A stretch of DNA of 43,378 nucleotides, taken from positions 1 to 43,378 of the forward strand of contig JAUIHI010000045.1 of NCBI GenBank assembly GCA_030432295.1, written 5' to 3'. The DNA comes from Anaerolineae bacterium (GTDB taxonomy: Bacteria > Chloroflexota > Anaerolineae > Caldilineales > Caldilineaceae). Shown here in pieces: positions 1-43,378 of the stretch; position 1 is the stretch's first letter; the number at the start of each line of letters is the position of its first letter. The notes beneath the pieces were generated by a model, which saw only the letters and a program-made list of their open reading frames with translations, was not told the DNA's origin and made no database searches. The translations under genes were made by a program, and so were the position numbers.

Positions 1-127
1 CACGGCTGTGGTTGCCGCCACCTCCCCGCTGGCGTCCAGCAGGTTGACATTCAGTCCACCCGCGTCCGTGCCCAGCTCACTTCCGTTCTGCACTTGGGAA
101 CCGTCCCCGTCGTCAAAGACACTCCCT
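1..127. repeat. Exact 127-bp copy of 706-832 (235-codon repeat unit of the giant protein)
   Basis: Bases 1-127 are identical to 706-832, an offset of 705 bp or 235 codons, with the first mismatch at 128/833. The repeat continues past the left edge, so its full length is unknown. The unit encodes SVFDDGDGSQVQNGSE and onward. Identity at the DNA level implies recent duplication or gene conversion. Confidence 0.95.
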
Positions 128-3100
128 CTCAGCCCGATTGTACCAAAGGGCATCGTCACTGTGGCAGGCGTCGGGTCGCTCTGGCCTGCGGCGTCCTGCA
201 CCGCATAGCCAAAGCTGACTGTCACTGCCCCGTCGTTCGGGTCCACTGTCAGTTTGGTCGGGTCGTAGTCGGTAATCACCTGATTCAGTGTCACCGGGCT
301 GCCGTCGTAGTAGAGGCTGCCATTCGTGGCCAGGCTGGTAATCGTCAAAGTCATGCCTGTGCTCAGGCTGCCATCCTCCGGGTCTGTGCCCGATAGGCTA
401 GGGGCCTGGACCTGGGATGTGCCACCCGGATTCACCTGGGATGGGGCGCTCTTGCCGTCGCTGTCGGGCAACTGCTCGATGCCGAAGTTCTGGCCGCTCA
501 CATCTGTGCTGCCCACAGAGACGGCCAGACGGCTGTCCGGTGTGCCGTCGGGTGTGCCGCCCGCATTCTCGCCGGTCGTCACCCAGCCGCTGGGCAGGTC
601 GGTGGCCGGGGCCAGTTGCCCGATTGTGCCTGCATTCGTCGTCAGTTGCAGGCTGTAGCTGCTGTTCGGTGTCACACTGGTGAAGGTGTACTGGCCGTTG
701 GCGTCCACGGCTGTGGTTGCCGCCACCTCCCCGCTGGCGTCCAGCAGGTTGACATTCAGTCCACCCGCGTCCGTGCCCAGCTCACTTCCGTTCTGCACTT
801 GGGAACCGTCCCCGTCGTCAAAGACACTCCCTGTCAGGTTGATAGGAAGAATATCCAGAAAATCGTTGTTGCTACTGGTCTGGCCGGAAGCGAGACTCAG
901 GACGATCTGTTCGTCGTTTCCACCGTCCACATCGCCCGTGCTAGTGTAGCCGCTGGCGTTCGTCTCGGTGACGGTGTATGTGCTCGGCACAGTCAGCGTG
1001 AATGTGTAGAGTCCGCTGGCGTCGGTGGTCGTCGTCATCCCATTGCTGAGGGAAATCAACACACCAGCAATGCCTGGCTCACCGGCATCCTTCACCCCAT
1101 CGCCGTTTGTGTTGTCGTTGTAGACTCCGCCACTGATGACCGACGGTTGAATGTCCAGGAAGTCGCGGCCGCTGACGGTCTGGCCCGCGCTGACTGTGAC
1201 ACTGATGCTGTCAGCGTTGCCGCCGTCCACATCGCCCGTGCTGGTATATCCCGCCGGATTTGTTTCGGTGACAGTGTATGTGCCCGGCACAGTTAGCGTG
1301 AATGTGTAGAGTCCGCTGGCGTCGGTGGTCGTCGTCATCCCGTTGGAGAGGGAAATCAACACACCGTCAATACCTGGCTCGCCGGCATCCTTCACCCCAT
1401 CGCCGTTTGTGTTGTCGTTGTAGACTCCGCCGGTGATATAGGACTTTTGAACAACCTGCACATCCGCCTGACCAGTAGTTGGCGCGGTGGGTCGGTCAAA
1501 GGCATCTGTGCCTGTGGCGGTGATGACATTTGTCGTGCTGGCTGTCGCTGCTGTGGCGGTAAAACTCAATGTGAGGGTCATACTCCCATTGACCAGCAGG
1601 GGCGGCTGGGTCGGAATCAACGGATTCCACACGGCCAGGCCGCTGCTTGTGCTGGTCGGCGCGACCGGTTGGGCGGTCGCCAGATTCTGGAAGCCGCTGT
1701 CGTAGGTGTCGGTCAAGACCAGCCCGGTAATAGCTGTTTCGCCGGTGTTGGTGATGCGCACGCTATAGGTAATGACATCGCCCAATTCGGCCACGCCGCT
1801 GGCTGGGGAGAGCAGTTGCTTGCTCACCTCCAGGGTCGGCGGGGCTACATTCGTCGTCACGGTGGCGTCGTCCTGGGAAGCCGGGACCGGGTCGCCGTTC
1901 ACATCGCTGGCAGAATCCACAATGGCTGTGTTGGTAGCCGGATCGCAGGGGCCGATGACTGTAAAGTTGACAGTCACAGTTGTGTTGCCGCCGCTGGCTG
2001 CCAGGTCACCGATGTCATCCCAACTGACAGTGCCACCGCCCGCGGATGTCTGGGTCGGTGTGGCCGAGGCGAATTGGAGACAGGTGGCTGGATAGCTGTC
2101 GGTCAAGGGCAGATTGTTGATTTGGGTATTGCCCGTGTTCGTCACCAGAATCTCGAAGGTGACGGTCTCGTTCAGATTGGCTGTGGCCGCCGAAGTGCGT
2201 GTCTTGGCGACAGTCAGGGCCGGGGCTGTGACTGTGACATTGGCGCTGCTGGTCTGGGGACCCACCGCCGCACCGTTCTGGTCCACACCCGTAGTGCTGA
2301 CGTCGTTTTGGGCCGGGCTGGCCGGGGCTGTGGCCCGATAGAATACAGTGATGCTGCGCTGGCCGCCGGACGCCAGGCTGGTCAGATCCCATTGCAGGGT
2401 GGGGGTGGCAATGCTGGTCGGCGTGATAGAGGCCGAGACATAGGCCAGGCTGGCCGACGGGAAGGTGTCGGTGAGAATATACGTCGAAAGGTCTGTGTCG
2501 CCCGGATTGCTGACCTGAATGCGGAACTCCACCAGATCGCCGACAAGGGCTGTGCCGTCGCTGGGGCTGATGAGGCTCTTGCTGATGCTGATGGCCGGGT
2601 TGGTGGCGATGATGACCGCGTCGTCGTGGGAGGTGTCGCTGGGGTCGTCCGGGTCTGTGTAATCCGCAGTCAGACTGTCGCCGGGGCTGAAGGGATCGCT
2701 GGTCGGGTCGCCAAAGCAGTAGCGGAAGACGCCCGTGTCGGCGCCGGTCTCTGTGAAGGTGTAGAGTGCGCTGGCCCCGCCTTGAACGCCCACTATGGCG
2801 TCGAGGGTCTCCGGCGCGCCGGCATTCGTATTCTGGTCCGAATCCGCAATCTGGACACAGACTTCCTGGGCCGGGTCATAGCTGCTGACCAGATTGTCGC
2901 TGGTGTCGATGAATTCGATGACGCCTGGCGTGCCCAGGTCCAGGAAGGAGAGGACGAGGGGTGTGCTGGCGCTGTCGCTGATGCCTTCGTAGCCCTCGTG
3001 GGCAGTCAGATTAATGTCATATGTACCCTGAGTTCCCGGTGTGCTCCAGGTGTATTCGTAGGTTTTGCTGCCGGCGGTGGAGGCCACCACAAAGGTGTCG

Positions 3101-6100
3101 TCCAGAATGACATTTGTACCGCTCAGGTTGAGGGTGGCGCTGATAATATCGGCTGCGCCGAAGGGATCGTTGACTGTGGCCCGCACGTAGACGGTCTGGC
3201 CGTTGAAGCCGCCACTGATGGCGTTGCCGCCGCCGTTGGCGTAGCTGTCGTCGTAGACTGCCACGGAATCCACGGAAATGACGGTTGTGGTGGGCAGATC
3301 AATCTTCGACGGATAGGTGCTGCTGTCGTAACGAATCTGGAAGGGATCGCTCTCGGCGCTGGTCACGATCAAACTGACGGCTTTGCTTGCCAGTACAGTC
3401 GTATTGCTGCCCAGATTGCCCGTCCAGATCAGTGTGTTCGCTGCACTGTTGTAGGTTGGATTGCTGAGGGTGGCGAAGGTGGCGCCGTCGTTTTGCAGGG
3501 TGGCGGTGATGAGTTTTGTGCCGTCCACACCCAGGCTGCCGCTGATGTGGGTGGTGACGGTGATTTGTCCGCCCATGGGCATCTTGAAATCAGATGCCAT
3601 TGACAATGTCTGCGTGTAGGTGGTAGTCGGGCCGCCGTCCCCGCTGCCCGATGTGGCGGGCTTGATGGAAACAGCACCAATGGCCCAATCTTTGTCTGTG
3701 CCGCTGACCGACCAGGACATCGTGACTGTGGATGCGCCAGACTCTGTGCTGGCACCTCCCGCCGTCTTATCATCCTGCAAACGCCACAATTCGGTTTGCC
3801 CGGCTCCACTACTGGTCAACGTCTTGTTTTCTTCCATCACAGTGTCGAAAACCAACTCGCCTGTGGCCGAAGCAACGTCGATGGTTGGTGATCCAGAACC
3901 GGCACCTGCCGACTGAAAAGAACCGTGGGGTGTGGTCTGATCCACATTGTCAAAGGTGGCTGCACCGATCACCCAGCCCTTGTCCACATTGCCTGAAAAT
4001 GTGATGGTGAGTGTGTCAGTACCGGAGGCAGGATTGAGCAACTTCCATATCTCAACCCGAGCTTTGTCACTTTGCTGTCGATGATCGATCTTGGTGAGAG
4101 AGGCACTTCCGTATTGGATCGATGTGACCGTCTCGCCGGAACCCTCGTTGCCCCGGGGTTCAAAGGAGACGCCAACCAGCATCAAACGATTGTCGCCAGT
4201 TCCGACGGTGTGATCCAGGGTCTGGACATTGTCTCCGTCGCCAGCTTTGCTCGATTTGCTGTCAAAGATGATTGTATCCGATGTGCCGTTACTCAGCAGT
4301 GTGCTCAATTCGCTGCTGCTGTCCCCGGTCGCCACCGGGTCGATGCGGTCCAAGTCCTGGTCCGGGCTGCCACTGCCGTCCGCGCTTAGATAGAGCACTT
4401 TGGTCTGGCTGGGCGCAGTGATTGCAGGCGGCGTTGGGTCGGTGCAGGTGTCGCCGAAGAGGGGGTCCGTGTAGCTAACGCTCAAAGTCTGGCCGATCTG
4501 TGCGTAGAGGGTGCCGTCCTCTACGCTCTGTCCGCCTGTTGTGGACGAAGGCAGGCTACCCTCAAAGATGCCGCTGCTGCCGGTCGTCTCCGTCAGGGGA
4601 ACGGTCTCCCGATCATTGGTGGTCGGGTTGCGAACAGTCACATCGATCACTTCCTGGCTGCCAGAGGTATTCTTGTCACCGTCGTTCAGACGCAGGAAGA
4701 CCGTCCCGTTGGCCTGGTAGAAGGAAGTAGAACTTCCACCGAGTGCGGTCAGAAAATCAACCGAACAGGCAGTGACGTTGCCCTGATCCACAGGTATGAC
4801 CAATTGGGTGCTTAGCTGGAATACATTGGCTGTTGTCCCCGCCGTATTCGAAACACTGCTCACATTGCCCACAACAGCCTTGTAGGCAAAGACCACCGAC
4901 TGATCGACAGCCAATGTGCCAACAATTGTGCCACCTTCGTCTAATACAAAGCGGGTAGCGCCTGTCAAATCATCGGTCTGGGTGACGCCGTCGATTGTGG
5001 TGGAGTCATTGACATACGTGAGGCCAGCGGAAAAAGTGTCGCTCACCACCACATTGCCAGCCACTACAACGCCTGTATTCTTCAGGGTAACGGTGTAGAT
5101 CAGCGTGTCAAAGGGTGTTACATTCCCGCTGTTGTCCGCGTCATTGAAGAGCGCGTAGTCCTTTGTAAATTGCACACTGGGGAAGGGGAGTACGGTTGTG
5201 CCCATATCCAAATAGGGGTTGCCCGGTCCAGCCGTGGCCGGGTCTTGGCCCCAGGCCGCGGTGATGCGTGTACCGTCCACTGTAAAAATACGCATACCGG
5301 TCTGGTCTTTGTCGCCAGAAGTGTCGTAGACGGTTTTGGATTGGAGCGCGGAGAGGCTGAAACTGGTGTCGTAGCACTGGTTGTCGACTGTGTAGGTACA
5401 GCTAACATCGCTGCCGTCGTAGTCCACATAGACGGTCGTGGCTTTGGCGGCCATCACCCAAATCGGGCTGCCGTTTTGGGTTCCGTCGCCGCTGCCCGGT
5501 CCCCAGCCCACCACGACTACCGGCGTCAAATTGCTCTCGGGGACAAGGCTGTAGCCCCAGTCGTGGGTCAGGTTGCCGGTCCCGCTCTGGTCGCTGTCCA
5601 CTGTGCCGATGGCAAAGAAGGGTGTGCCACTGCTGGTGAAAAGATGTGCGCCGGAGTTGCTGGGCATCTGCACACGCACCGCGCTGTTGGCCCCCACAGC
5701 CACATTGCTGGAGCCGCTGAGCGTATCCACAGTCACATTGATGGACGAGGCGTCGCTGGGGTTGTAAATCCACACATCCGCCGGGTCGGAGGAGACAGTC
5801 GTGCCCACAGGTGCAAAATAGCTGCTGCTCCACTGGGCATCTGGCACAAGGGTAAACCAGCGGGATTCGTAGCTGGAACTCACATCGCCAGTGAGGAGAT
5901 GGGCCTGGACAGGTTTATCACAGACCAGACTGTCGCCTGCGTTTACTCCCCCGGCTTTGTGATAGTTCTGCCCCGCGTTCAGGTTGAAGTTGCTGCCGTC
6001 GAAGCTACAGGCTGTATTGTCGCTGCCAGCCATCACAAAAAGCGCCGAATATTCGAACATCTGATTGGAGGAGAGATTCTCGCCGACTGGCATCTCGTAG

Positions 6101-6702
6101 GAAGTGCCGTACTTGGCCACCGAGAGAACCTCGACCGCGCCGGCCAGCACAGTGCCGGGAGACACGCCCCATTCGGCCCGACTCACCGACACGGCCTGGG
6201 ATGTGGCTACTTTGTCCCGACCGTCGTAAAGAATTGTGCCACTGTTGCGGGGCAGGCTGACATCATTGCGCAGGGCAATCACATTTCCCGAGTTGATGAT
6301 GTCGCCGGAACAGGCCCCACCACAGACGGAAGTCGACGCCGCATTGCCATTGGAGGTGTTGCCGTCGCCCCAAACCTGTGTCGAGGACTGGGTTGGGTTG
6401 GAAATATCCAACTCATAGCCATCTTCCCAGTGGTCGTAATAGACAACAGTTCCATTGCCAGTCGAAACAATGGAAATCACACTGTCCATCACATTTCCCA
6501 CCCGGCCCCGGTTGTCAATACTGCTCAGGGATGTGCGGGTCTGTTGTTCGGGCAGAGGGATAAAAAATGTCTGCACGGGGGACGCGCTGACCGCATCCAT
6601 TGCGCGGACACTAACCAAAATCAGCAACAGTGCAAAAAGGGAGGGCAGCACTCGCCGGGCTGCTCTTCGCTGCAAAAAAGGAACGGTTTTTGAAGACATC
6701 AT
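1..6702 (-). CDS. Giant secreted repeat protein (DUF11 / SdrD-B-like domains), 3' end outside window
   Basis: One uninterrupted minus-strand frame of 2,234 codons runs from a double ATG at 6702/6699 (GAGGGAG just upstream) to the window edge; the C-terminus is not seen. Residues 1-40 form a signal peptide (Arg-rich start, hydrophobic LFALLLILVSV, likely cleavage after AVSA). An N-terminal domain (about 41-500) carries VYYDHWEDGYE at 87-97, a phrase I associate with large bacterial DUF11 surface proteins. DUF11-like blocks start near 510, 1368, 1495 and 1620 (for example ITYSVRITNTG). Between them (about 700-1350) lie unrecognised beta-rich segments, two of which share DK(G/D)W(V/A)IGA at about 100-residue spacing (near 907 and 1003). 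From 1755 come SdrD-B-like repeats (GGVYNDNTNGDGVKDAGEPG), then a 235-residue unit that restarts at the edge. Secretion is seen; cell attachment or adhesion is inferred. The anchor, if any, lies outside. Confidence 0.9.
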   Translation of the reverse strand, partial: MMSSKTVPFLQRRAARRVLPSLFALLLILVSVRAMDAVSASPVQTFFIPLPEQQTRTSLSSIDNRGRVGNVMDSVISIVSTGNGTVVYYDHWEDGYELDISNPTQSSTQVWGDGNTSNGNAASTSVCGGACSGDIINSGNVIALRNDVSLPRNSGTILYDGRDKVATSQAVSVSRAEWGVSPGTVLAGAVEVLSVAKYGTSYEMPVGENLSSNQMFEYSALFVMAGSDNTACSFDGSNFNLNAGQNYHKAGGVNAGDSLVCDKPVQAHLLTGDVSSSYESRWFTLVPDAQWSSSYFAPVGTTVSSDPADVWIYNPSDASSINVTVDTLSGSSNVAVGANSAVRVQMPSNSGAHLFTSSGTPFFAIGTVDSDQSGTGNLTHDWGYSLVPESNLTPVVVVGWGPGSGDGTQNGSPIWVMAAKATTVYVDYDGSDVSCTYTVDNQCYDTSFSLSALQSKTVYDTSGDKDQTGMRIFTVDGTRITAAWGQDPATAGPGNPYLDMGTTVLPFPSVQFTKDYALFNDADNSGNVTPFDTLIYTVTLKNTGVVVAGNVVVSDTFSAGLTYVNDSTTIDGVTQTDDLTGATRFVLDEGGTIVGTLAVDQSVVFAYKAVVGNVSSVSNTAGTTANVFQLSTQLVIPVDQGNVTACSVDFLTALGGSSTSFYQANGTVFLRLNDGDKNTSGSQEVIDVTVRNPTTNDRETVPLTETTGSSGIFEGSLPSSTTGGQSVEDGTLYAQIGQTLSVSYTDPLFGDTCTDPTPPAITAPSQTKVLYLSADGSGSPDQDLDRIDPVATGDSSSELSTLLSNGTSDTIIFDSKSSKAGDGDNVQTLDHTVGTGDNRLMLVGVSFEPRGNEGSGETVTSIQYGSASLTKIDHRQQSDKARVEIWKLLNPASGTDTLTITFSGNVDKGWVIGAATFDNVDQTTPHGSFQSAGAGSGSPTIDVASATGELVFDTVMEENKTLTSSGAGQTELWRLQDDKTAGGASTESGASTVTMSWSVSGTDKDWAIGAVSIKPATSGSGDGGPTTTYTQTLSMASDFKMPMGGQITVTTHISGSLGVDGTKLITATLQNDGATFATLSNPTYNSAANTLIWTGNLGSNTTVLASKAVSLIVTSAESDPFQIRYDSSTYPSKIDLPTTTVISVDSVAVYDDSYANGGGNAISGGFNGQTVYVRATVNDPFGAADIISATLNLSGTNVILDDTFVVASTAGSKTYEYTWSTPGTQGTYDINLTAHEGYEGISDSASTPLVLSFLDLGTPGVIEFIDTSDNLVSSYDPAQEVCVQIADSDQNTNAGAPETLDAIVGVQGGASALYTFTETGADTGVFRYCFGDPTSDPFSPGDSLTADYTDPDDPSDTSHDDAVIIATNPAISISKSLISPSDGTALVGDLVEFRIQVSNPGDTDLSTYILTDTFPSASLAYVSASITPTSIATPTLQWDLTSLASGGQRSITVFYRATAPASPAQNDVSTTGVDQNGAAVGPQTSSANVTVTAPALTVAKTRTSAATANLNETVTFEILVTNTGNTQINNLPLTDSYPATCLQFASATPTQTSAGGGTVSWDDIGDLAASGGNTTVTVNFTVIGPCDPATNTAIVDSASDVNGDPVPASQDDATVTTNVAPPTLEVSKQLLSPASGVAELGDVITYSVRITNTGETAITGLVLTDTYDSGFQNLATAQPVAPTSTSSGLAVWNPLIPTQPPLLVNGSMTLTLSFTATAATASTTNVITATGTDAFDRPTAPTTGQADVQVVQKSYITGGVYNDNTNGDGVKDAGEPGIDGVLISLSNGMTTTTDASGLYTFTLTVPGTYTVTETNPAGYTSTGDVDGGNADSISVTVSAGQTVSGRDFLDIQPSVISGGVYNDNTNGDGVKDAGEPGIAGVLISLSNGMTTTTDASGLYTFTLTVPSTYTVTETNASGYTSTGDVDGGNDEQIVLSLASGQTSSNNDFLDILPINLTGSVFDDGDGSQVQNGSELGTDAGGLNVNLLDASGEVAATTAVDANGQYTFTSVTPNSSYSLQLTTNAGTIGQLAPATDLPSGWVTTGENAGGTPDGTPDSRLAVSVGSTDVSGQNFGIEQLPDSDGKSAPSQVNPGGTSQVQAPSLSGTDPEDGSLSTGMTLTITSLATNGSLYYDGSPVTLNQVITDYDPTKLTVDPNDGAVTVSFGYAVQDAAGQSDPTPATVTMPFGTIGLRGSVFDDGDGSQVQNGSELGTDAGGLNVNLLDASGEVAATTAV
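841..1440. repeat. Two tandem 300-bp units (100 codons each) in the giant protein
   Basis: 841-1140 and 1141-1440 are near-identical over the parts 961-1140 and 1261-1440, and more diverged in the other third. Each encodes a 100-residue unit with GGVYNDNTNGDGVKDAGEPG, a strand-rich SdrD-B-like segment and GYTSTGDVDGGN. The acidic Asn/Asp/Gly stretch resembles calcium-binding loops of B-type repeats (inferred). Confidence 0.9.
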
Positions 6703-6795
6703 CTTCTCCCTCGGAAAACTTGGAATGTGCGCTTGCGCCCTAGACAAATGGGTACAAATAATCACTACTACACTACGACAAAAACATCGACAGCA

Positions 6796-8840: not shown

Positions 8841-8941
8841 GACGGCAGACGGCAGACGACTGACGGCAGACGAACGTATTGAGCCTGAACATTCCATCCG
8901 TTCGTCCTCCGTCAGCGGTCTTTGGTCCGCCGTCCGCCGTC
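8841..8941. repeat. GACGGCA heptad array forming an imperfect inverted repeat between divergent genes
   Basis: Five consecutive heptads occupy 8841-8875 (GACGGCA, GACGGCA, GACGACT, GACGGCA, GACGAAC). The reverse-complement pattern with changes lies at 8899-8941 (GTTCGTCC ... GTCCGCCGTCCGCCGTC). It sits in the divergent promoter gap of the hydrolase and the FAD oxidase and recurs as a tighter hairpin at 27439-27484. Confidence 0.85.
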
Positions 8942-8971
8942 CCATCCATTGCACACACAAGGAGTATACCG

Positions 8972-10237
8972 ATGAATGACCTTCGACACAACTGGGCCGG
9001 AAACATCGGCTATGGCTCGGCCCGCACCCACCAGCCCGAATCCGTCGAGCAACTCCAGGAAATCGTCGCCCGCAGCCACAAAGTGAAGGTCTACGGCTCC
9101 CGCCACTCCTTCAACGCCATCACCGACACCACCGGCGATCACATCGCCCTGGACAAAATGGACCGCAGCCTTTCGCTTGACCCGACCGCGGGTACAGTCA
9201 CCGTCAATGGCGGCATCACCTACGGGGAACTTTGCGCCCAACTCCACGCCGCGGGCCGGGCCATCCACAATATGGCCTCCCTCCCCCACATTACTGTAGC
9301 CGGGGCTGTCTCCACCGCCACCCACGGCTCCGGCGACCGCAACGGCGTTCTGGCTGCGGCAGTCTGCGGGCTGGAAATTGTGCGGGCCGACGGCGAGATT
9401 GTCCAACTTTCCAAAGAGAAAGACAGCGAGGAATTTCTGGGCGCGGTGGTGGGATTGGGCGCGCTGGGAATTGTGACACGCATCACCCTGGAGACCCAAC
9501 CGGCCTTTGTGATGCAGCAGGAAGTCTACGAAAATATGCCCATCGACCAGTCCGACGCCCATTTCGACGAGATTTTCGCCAGCGCCTACAGCGTCAGCTA
9601 TTTCATCGACTGGCAGACGGAACGGGTCAACGAAGTCTGGCTCAAGCGGCGGCTGCCCGATGGCGTGGTCCAGACACCCCCACCCACCTTCTACGGCGCA
9701 ACTCTCGCCAACCGCAACCTGCACCCTATCGCATCCTTCCCCGCAGATCCCTGCACCCCCCAGATGGGCATCCCCGGCCCCTGGCACGAGCGGCTGCCCC
9801 ACTTTCTGGTGGATTCGGTTCCCGCCAGCGGCGACGAATTGCAGACCGAATATTTTGTGGCCCGCAAGCACGCGGTGGGGGCAATGACGGCACTGGCCAG
9901 TCTGCGCCGGGAGCTGGCGCCTGTTCTGAAAATTTCTGAAGTGCGTTCGATGGCCGGGGATCAGCTTTGGCTGAGTATGGCCTATGGACAGGATACAGTG
10001 GCCCTGCATTTCTCCTGGAACAACGACTGGGATGCGCTGCAAAAGCTGCTGCCCCTGGTGGAAGAACGACTGGCTCACTTTAGCCCCCGTCCCCACTGGG
10101 GCAAACTTTCCACCCTCTCCGGTGTAGAGATTCAGGCCCAATATCCCAAAGCCAACGACTTCCGGGCGCTGGCCGAGCGCTACGATCCCCAGGGGAAATT
10201 CCGCAACGCCTATCTGGACGCAACAATTTTTGCGTAG
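8972..10237 (+). CDS. FAD-linked oxidase, alditol/xylitol oxidase-like
   Basis: 421 residues from MNDLRHNWAGN, with AAGGAG eight bases before the ATG. Earlier in-frame starts lie in the heptad repeat and are rejected. The N-terminal FAD-binding domain (about 10-180) includes VKVYGSRHSFN; in AldO-type oxidases the His of this motif carries covalent FAD. The C-terminus ERYDPQGKFRNAYL is the ending typical of the lactone/alditol oxidase family. Length matches AldO enzymes (about 420). The expected reaction is O2-dependent oxidation of a polyol or sugar lactone with H2O2 release; the substrate cannot be told from sequence. It is divergent from the hydrolase gene. Confidence 0.88.
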   Translation: MNDLRHNWAGNIGYGSARTHQPESVEQLQEIVARSHKVKVYGSRHSFNAITDTTGDHIALDKMDRSLSLDPTAGTVTVNGGITYGELCAQLHAAGRAIHNMASLPHITVAGAVSTATHGSGDRNGVLAAAVCGLEIVRADGEIVQLSKEKDSEEFLGAVVGLGALGIVTRITLETQPAFVMQQEVYENMPIDQSDAHFDEIFASAYSVSYFIDWQTERVNEVWLKRRLPDGVVQTPPPTFYGATLANRNLHPIASFPADPCTPQMGIPGPWHERLPHFLVDSVPASGDELQTEYFVARKHAVGAMTALASLRRELAPVLKISEVRSMAGDQLWLSMAYGQDTVALHFSWNNDWDALQKLLPLVEERLAHFSPRPHWGKLSTLSGVEIQAQYPKANDFRALAERYDPQGKFRNAYLDATIFA

Positions 10238-43199: not shown

Positions 43200-43378
43200 A
43201 GATGGCTCCGGTGAAAAAACCGATTTTTTTGTGAAAGTTACTGGGGTTCCCAAGTAAAACCAACTAAGTTTTTAGAAATAGAAATCGGTCATCAGAAAGC
43301 AAATTGTTTTGGTTGCGAAGGCAGTTGGTGGCCGAAGCAAGTAGGTCCAAGACGGAAGCGAAAAGTTTGTTGGCACAG
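43200..43378. other. Intergenic region at the right edge
   Basis: 179 bp upstream of the acetyltransferase gene, AT-richer than the window average (notably 43215-43320). No gene, hairpin or clear promoter pair is seen. Confidence 0.5.

Follow-up and report, generated by a model that had tools for sequence, protein, structure and literature searches.

Surface proteins of the Sdr/Clf type are composed of a signal peptide, a stalk of tandem SdrD_B repeats and a C-terminus that carries an LPXTG wall-sorting signal. Giant proteins rich in DUF11 modules are known from the class Caldilineae, where the polar grappling hooks of Litorilinea aerophila are made from GhlA, a protein of 6,596 aa with 49 DUF11 domains that is described there as having no signal peptide (PMC13319060). 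In the sugar-binding-type ASRAH (ASRT-like) superfamily of beta-sandwiches, a Trp starts strand 1 and an Asn ends strand 2; the ASRT-like branch contacts its ligand through a His and a Cys, with other branches having residues of their own at these places, and secreted versions of the superfamily are reported from Chloroflexota (De Souza et al., PMC2739507). Regarding combinations of such modules, a literature search on YVTN together with DUF11 found nothing, a search on gene conversion in DUF11 proteins gave nothing relevant by title, no title among the matches listed linked IgGFc with DUF11 in bacteria, and the term SdrD B-like was absent among the matches listed for Chloroflexota or Caldilinea.

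The gene considered here lies at the edge of contig C50 in a Caldilineaceae genome (Chloroflexota) of 6.7 Mb in 61 contigs. The window, meaning the whole stretch of 43,378 bases that was analyzed, is this contig in its entirety, and position 1 is its first base. The encoded protein resembles other giant surface fibers in being assembled from many immunoglobulin-like modules. We consider it probable that the gene specifies a modular Caldilineaceae surface fiber, with a signal peptide, a head of about 475 residues, an Ig-like stalk, likely a propeller end, and repeats that recombine.

Gene organization and modules

On the minus strand, a reading frame is open from an ATG at 6702 (or a GTG at 6765) through position 1, and encodes 2,234 residues counted from the ATG. 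The preliminary description had announced a very large protein with a signal peptide, DUF11 blocks and 100-residue SdrD-B-like tandem repeats, and was right in all of these respects, as indicated by the length of the frame, the signal-type N-terminus read from the sequence, four DUF11 matches and two 100-residue SdrD_B copies. The protein is probably secreted. Its closest named relatives occur in Caldilineaceae metagenome genomes, one of them assigned to the same genus. Comparisons below refer mainly to paralogues on contig C20 of the source genome (own C20 genes 1 and 2) and to genes C12 and C45 of the Caldilineaceae isolate ACE_CHL8 (JAHBVF01), a metagenome-assembled genome hereafter called CHL8. 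The features are as follows, in the order of the protein.

6706..6712, minus strand: GAGGGAG, likely ribosome-binding site ahead of the ATG at 6702 (read from the sequence)
1..6702, minus strand: 5' part of the coding frame of the giant protein, with its 3' end past the contig (ORF reading)
6583..6702, minus strand: signal-peptide-like N-terminus, residues 1-40, with the hydrophobic stretch LPSLFALLLILVSV and a likely cleavage after VSA (sequence reading)
5158..6582, minus strand: conserved N-terminal head, residues 41-515, AlphaFold2 pLDDT 90.2, without Pfam match (AlphaFold2, Pfam)
5530..5838, minus strand: best-matched beta-sandwich of the head, model residues 257-359, TM1070 (1nc7)-like (VIA-align)
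4825..5127, minus strand: DUF11 module behind the head (domain match)
3523..4302, minus strand: module region, residues 801-1060, nearer to CHL8 gene C12 than to own C20 gene 1 or CHL8 gene C45 (sequence comparison)
1438..3522, minus strand: DUF11/DUF7507 block, residues 1061-1755, mostly the homologue of a tract common to the CHL8 paralogues (domain match and comparison)
2275..2565, minus strand: DUF11 module (domain match)
1864..2217, minus strand: DUF11 module (domain match)
1483..1794, minus strand: DUF11 module (domain match)
1138..1437, minus strand: SdrD_B repeat copy 1, 100 aa (repeat alignment, domain match)
838..1137, minus strand: SdrD_B repeat copy 2, 100 aa (repeat alignment, domain match)
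139..843, minus strand: 235-residue unit copy 1, made of an SdrD_B-like half and a half without Pfam match (repeat comparison)
1..138, minus strand: 235-residue unit copy 2, truncated by the contig end after 46 residues (repeat comparison)
1..127, no strand: 127 bases identical to 706-832, equal to the probable k of the assembler (sequence comparison)

Module assignments lay well above the curated cut-offs, with 89.8 bits against 24.6 for DUF11 (PF01345), 92.3 against 24 for TIGR01451, and 105.5 against 29.7 for SdrD_B (PF17210; three stretches, E 2.4e-30). A fimbrial isopeptide domain was also among the NCBIfam matches listed (33.4 bits, cut-off 30), and an NCBIfam nickel-transporter model reaching 25 bits against a cut-off of 100 was taken as a chance match. 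A promoter scan upstream of the gene gave 0 sites, and terminator-like sites numbered 1 against 1.0 expected. Synteny between the window flank and CHL8 was absent at E 1e-15, except for a single 28% match of the frame at 8864-10234.

The similarity to GhlA and to GhpA of Aureispira is a general one, as the window protein is likewise giant and built with DUF11 Ig-like modules, and GhlA comes from the same class (PMC13319060). It could therefore be asked whether this is a grappling-hook filament protein instead of a separate kind of surface fiber. We regard this as highly improbable, since only four DUF11 stretches occur in the 2,234 residues seen, as opposed to the dozens of consecutive modules (49) in GhlA, and since the N-terminus reads as a signal type, followed by a special head and by SdrD_B and 235-residue repeats, whereas GhlA reportedly lacks a signal peptide and has an N-terminal transmembrane stretch. 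The same genome moreover offers a better counterpart. On contig C3, at about 41.7-61.7 kb (L232, L233), a frame of 7,081 aa contains 31 DUF11 matches and internal repeats that are 87-88% alike in DNA, and is by its modules the genome's better candidate for the equivalent of GhlA. We accordingly keep the reading of the window gene as a modular surface fiber.

The N-terminal head

No Pfam family matched the window head up to E 10, and Foldseek found no match below 0.001. IgGFc_binding (PF17517) detected 7 of the 44 aligned head members at E<=0.01 (the window and 43 of 47 related loci) and 5 of 43 members of the sandwich profile in a Pfam scan, but the window head itself stayed below the cut-off of that family. 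By structure comparison, one beta-sandwich of the model was similar to TM1070 in VIA-align (Z 10.9, rmsd 3.2, 97 of 116 aligned), with the next row at Z 5.4; rows beyond TM1070, at Z 5.4 and less, were taken as reflecting a common arrangement. This listing concerned mainly model residues 254-356 and barely covered the rest of the head.

The two marks of the ASRAH superfamily were found in the head alignment, the Trp in 40 of 44 members (three residues before the modelled strand) and the Asn in all 44. Searches at the sequence level nevertheless brought out no relation to ASRT/ASRAH proteins: no ASRT family appeared in the Pfam scan, TM1070 was absent among the PDB sequence matches, and the best PDB sequence matches of the sandwich profile were designed Ig-like proteins (E 0.0009). 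The ligand signature of the ASRT-like branch was also absent, the positions that correspond to His and Cys being read as Pro and Trp in the window head, and glycan binding by the head is therefore a guess from fold and context. Within the head, comparison of the internal repeats by hhalign gave probabilities of 91.7% for R2-R3, 71.5% for R3-R4, 60.2% for R1-R2 and 33.3% for R2-R4, and of under 1% for R1-R3 and R1-R4. These profile comparisons are suggestive of adjacent sandwiches being related to one another.

The head was present in 10 of 46 genomes of the family and in 3 of 7 in the genus, and in at least 4 of 201 genomes drawn across the phylum when the best candidates, up to seven per listed genome, were scored; the source genome is included in each of these counts. 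Judged by such sequence searches, the head is accessory and patchy. Proteins that carry it ended with a stop within the locus in 24 of the 39 frames read, and ten of their C-terminal pieces included two with a Sortase domain (L074, L078) and four with Peptidase_C25 (L070, L075, L079, L083). Two head proteins of Acidimicrobiia displayed, by eye, LPxTG-like tails (LPRTG and LPVTG). The head is the newest part of the picture, and may deserve a family of its own.

Complete relatives and the C-terminal propeller

Three complete relatives, with stop-to-stop frames of 3,492 and 3,308 aa in CHL8 and of 3,224 aa on own contig C20, all end in a propeller-type domain of about 300 residues, 46-50% alike among them. 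For the 3,492-aa relative, this C-terminal domain was folded from four sequences with a pLDDT of 86.9, and Foldseek placed 1l0q first (E 3.9e-14), a YVTN propeller from a surface-layer protein of an archaeon; next came YncE of E. coli and many other propellers (1,643 matches below 0.001). By sequence, this propeller (L040) scored just under the cut-off of Pfam YNCE (26.7 against 27.1). Within a subtype, the C-terminal propellers cluster by genome. By analogy with these relatives, the window gene most likely continues past the contig end into a YVTN-type beta-propeller of about seven blades. The archaeal protein, with its YVTN propeller and PKD modules, is similar in having a propeller beside Ig-like modules, as in the C-terminus of the relative, but differs in the order and in the stalk modules, and the propeller on our side is known from relatives, outside the window.

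No sorting signal (LPXTG, hydrophobic stretch, basic tail) was seen by eye in the three complete Caldilineaceae relatives. In this respect the complete relatives depart from the Sdr/Clf type; the window protein has a different head, and resembles that type by its signal-type N-terminus and tandem SdrD_B stalk. Because its own C-terminus lies past the contig and the complete relatives show no anchor, attachment to the surface is something that we infer. Ahead of the propeller, the 3,492-aa relative has a short Pro/Thr linker. The related own gene of 3,224 aa (L109, 2233-11904) contains several hundred Thr/Pro-rich linker residues of the type TPTATPTHTE upstream of its propeller. Such a linker is likely another cause of assembly breaks; the end of contig C59 falls in a similar Thr/Pro-rich stretch.

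Inward-running 3' halves of genes of this kind are found at three contig ends (C59 end, C54 start, C31 start), and an outward-running 5' half at the start of C26. C59 is the best candidate for the 3' half of the window gene. In its favor, an HD-type gene (named by eye) lies downstream, as it does downstream of CHL8 gene C12 (82.7% aa), and the C59 propeller is nearer to the C12 propeller (59%) than to the other subtype (45-50%). Against it, the best CHL8 match of the whole piece is a 1,095-aa protein (57.5%, versus 45.5% for C12), and the propeller is nearest to that of an own protein on C20 (80%). As for the other ends, C26:1-228 pairs with C31:118-345 (L230, L231) over 228 bp at 98.7%, and these two ends probably belong to a single giant gene that contains a 363-bp repeat and was split at its repeat array.

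The contig edge

Positions 1-127 are identical, letter for letter, to 706-832, with the first mismatch at 128 and 131 of 132 bases identical overall. For 117 of the 122 contig termini of the source genome, the terminal 400 bases were compared, and exactly 127 bases were common to 38 pairs of ends, 58-126 to 26 pairs, and more than 127 to none. From this distribution, 127 is most likely the length of the words used by the assembler; the figure then gives a lower limit and does not measure the identity past the edge. The other end of the window tells the same story, as exactly 127 bases, 43252-43378, recur at the start of contig C11, which makes this a k-mer junction too. Most likely, the assembler failed to cross the repeat and the contig consequently ends inside the gene: it stops where the word occurs twice, and the edge, being caused by the repeat, is a biased place for judging recency. 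The edge sequence was absent from the other contigs of the genome (the two window copies matched at 100 and 99%, and on C20 the next match reached 85% over 93 bases). None of the 61 contigs is shorter than 4.1 kb, so the continuation may be a short contig that was dropped.

In the preliminary description, identity over at least 127 bp between copies of the 235-residue unit had been taken as a sign of recent expansion, and an artefact of assembly at the edge had been named as what would refute the idea. The identity is there, over exactly 127 bp, but its length is probably that of the assembler's k and its place is biased, and it does not show recent expansion. As far as it extends, the identity is real. 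The passage from unit 1 to unit 2 aligns at 72% with an inter-unit passage in the own paralogue C20 gene 2, a natural one, and the edge thus does not look chimeric.

A more skeptical view is that the identity is nothing but an overlap of 127 bases left by the assembler, and that the array consists of two ordinary diverged units without recent expansion. We take this view seriously, while leaning somewhat against it. The exact figure of 127, recurring in 38 terminus pairs, agrees with it, as does the fact that whole 235-residue units of own C20 gene 2 are only 70-78% alike in DNA (three of four compared). A 127-mer common at a graph junction should, however, reflect a true identity among the reads. 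Over the corresponding 132 bases, the three C20 units compared agree at 73-89%, so that a value of 131 of 132 stands out for this unit, albeit at a place picked by the break.

Repeat evolution and homogenization

Evidence on how the repeats evolve came from the SdrD_B copies of the family. By motif, copies of the searched type numbered two in the window, six in CHL8 C12, one each in CHL8 C45 and own C20 gene 1, and none in C20 gene 2. The window copies are 79% alike mutually and 66-71% alike to the eight copies in the three related genes; at the DNA level, 915-1151 and 1215-1451 agree at 87% ungapped, or at 90.4% over 218 columns. The six C12 copies are 85-90% alike mutually and 68-70% alike to those of the window, and one of them is 94% like the C45 copy. 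Copies thus cluster by gene, in both species. Synonymous divergence was 0.34-0.68 within genes (0.54 in the window, 0.36 over the first 216 bases), compared with 1.7-2.1, near saturation, between the window copies and the first C12 copy, and with 0.99 and 1.72 between the window copies and that of the own paralogue. Low divergence within genes and high divergence between them argue for amplification or homogenization after the split from CHL8. By the same estimate (0.36 over the first 216 bases), the window copies are not very young. The 235-residue unit, found in 3 of 46 family genomes (E 1e-6), also occurs four times in own C20 gene 2, a differently built gene, which indicates that modules move between genes.

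The clearest sign of exchange between genes came from CHL8, where C12 (L107) and C45 (L108) have in common a tract of 2,271 bp that is 98.4% identical and includes an uninterrupted 1,336 bp without a mismatch. In their N-terminal parts the two genes agree at 76%, the module that directly precedes the tract is not the same in both, and downstream of it their architectures diverge. A misassembly of CHL8 could imitate such a tract, and no homogenization between genes would then have occurred; CHL8 is metagenome-assembled, and a wrong join could give the perfect run. We think this unlikely, as the 37 mismatched columns of the tract, partly clustered, do not fit one collapsed sequence, and as, in both species, SdrD_B copies group with others of the same gene, and propellers of a subtype with those of the same genome.

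Homogenization between genes therefore stays our preferred reading of the tract, and informative sites were counted over four genes (window, own C20 gene 1, CHL8 C12 and CHL8 C45). Residues 37-800 gave 98 sites pairing the window with C12, 55 pairing by genome and 43 for the third pairing; residues 801-1060 gave 115, 6 and 15, and residues 1061-1755 gave 4, 204 and 6, respectively. In residues 801-1060, own C20 gene 1 and CHL8 gene C45 resemble each other. The switch of pairing along the gene is, on these sequence counts, driven mainly by the CHL8 pair; in the middle block, the window gene is only slightly closer to its own paralogue (79.3%) than to the CHL8 genes (75.5-76.6%). Third codon positions in the N-terminal block did not separate the pairings (38 window with C12, 40 by genome, 29 third), which is evidence against a clear signal of orthology in that block. 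The earlier idea of repeats still being homogenized consequently holds for the family, through the clustering by gene and the CHL8 tract, and shows weakly in the window genome. The exchange pattern is seen in CHL8, unless misassembled, and by analogy we infer it for the window genome.

Other giant genes of the source genome, on C3, C18 and C31, carry repeats 87-91% alike (12 pieces compared). Together with the C26/C31 break and the 113 DUF11 matches of the genome, they indicate that the window gene is no exception in its genome.

Proposed function and significance

From a mechanistic point of view, the order of parts would be a signal peptide, a head of consecutive beta-sandwiches, an Ig-like stalk of DUF11, SdrD_B and 235-residue modules, and a propeller. 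Such a protein would be exported by Sec and located at the cell surface or in an outer protein layer, where the head and the propeller would provide the contacts, in the case of the head perhaps to glycans, at a distance given by the stalk. The protein would most likely serve in adhesion or in building the cell envelope. Through gene conversion and unequal recombination, the repeats would grow, shrink and swap sequence, both inside one gene and from paralogue to paralogue.

As regards genome data, sequence that is repeated over exactly 127 bp where a contig ends should be read as most likely a mark of the assembly. Giant Chloroflexota genes with concerted repeats interrupt short-read assemblies, and both their number and their real length are thus easily underestimated. 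The head without Pfam match, with its sortase, C25 peptidase or propeller partners, is a target for the definition of a new domain family and for glycan-binding tests. More tentatively, and with doubts that outweigh our confidence, we propose that the head represents a family not yet described, with ASRAH-like sugar-binding sandwiches lined up in a row, which would start giant stalk proteins in several bacterial phyla, with exchangeable ends (propeller, sortase domain, C25 peptidase or LPxTG-like tail). In Caldilineaceae, gene conversion would then reshuffle stalk length and modules, and may thereby provide a reservoir for changing surface reach and binding.
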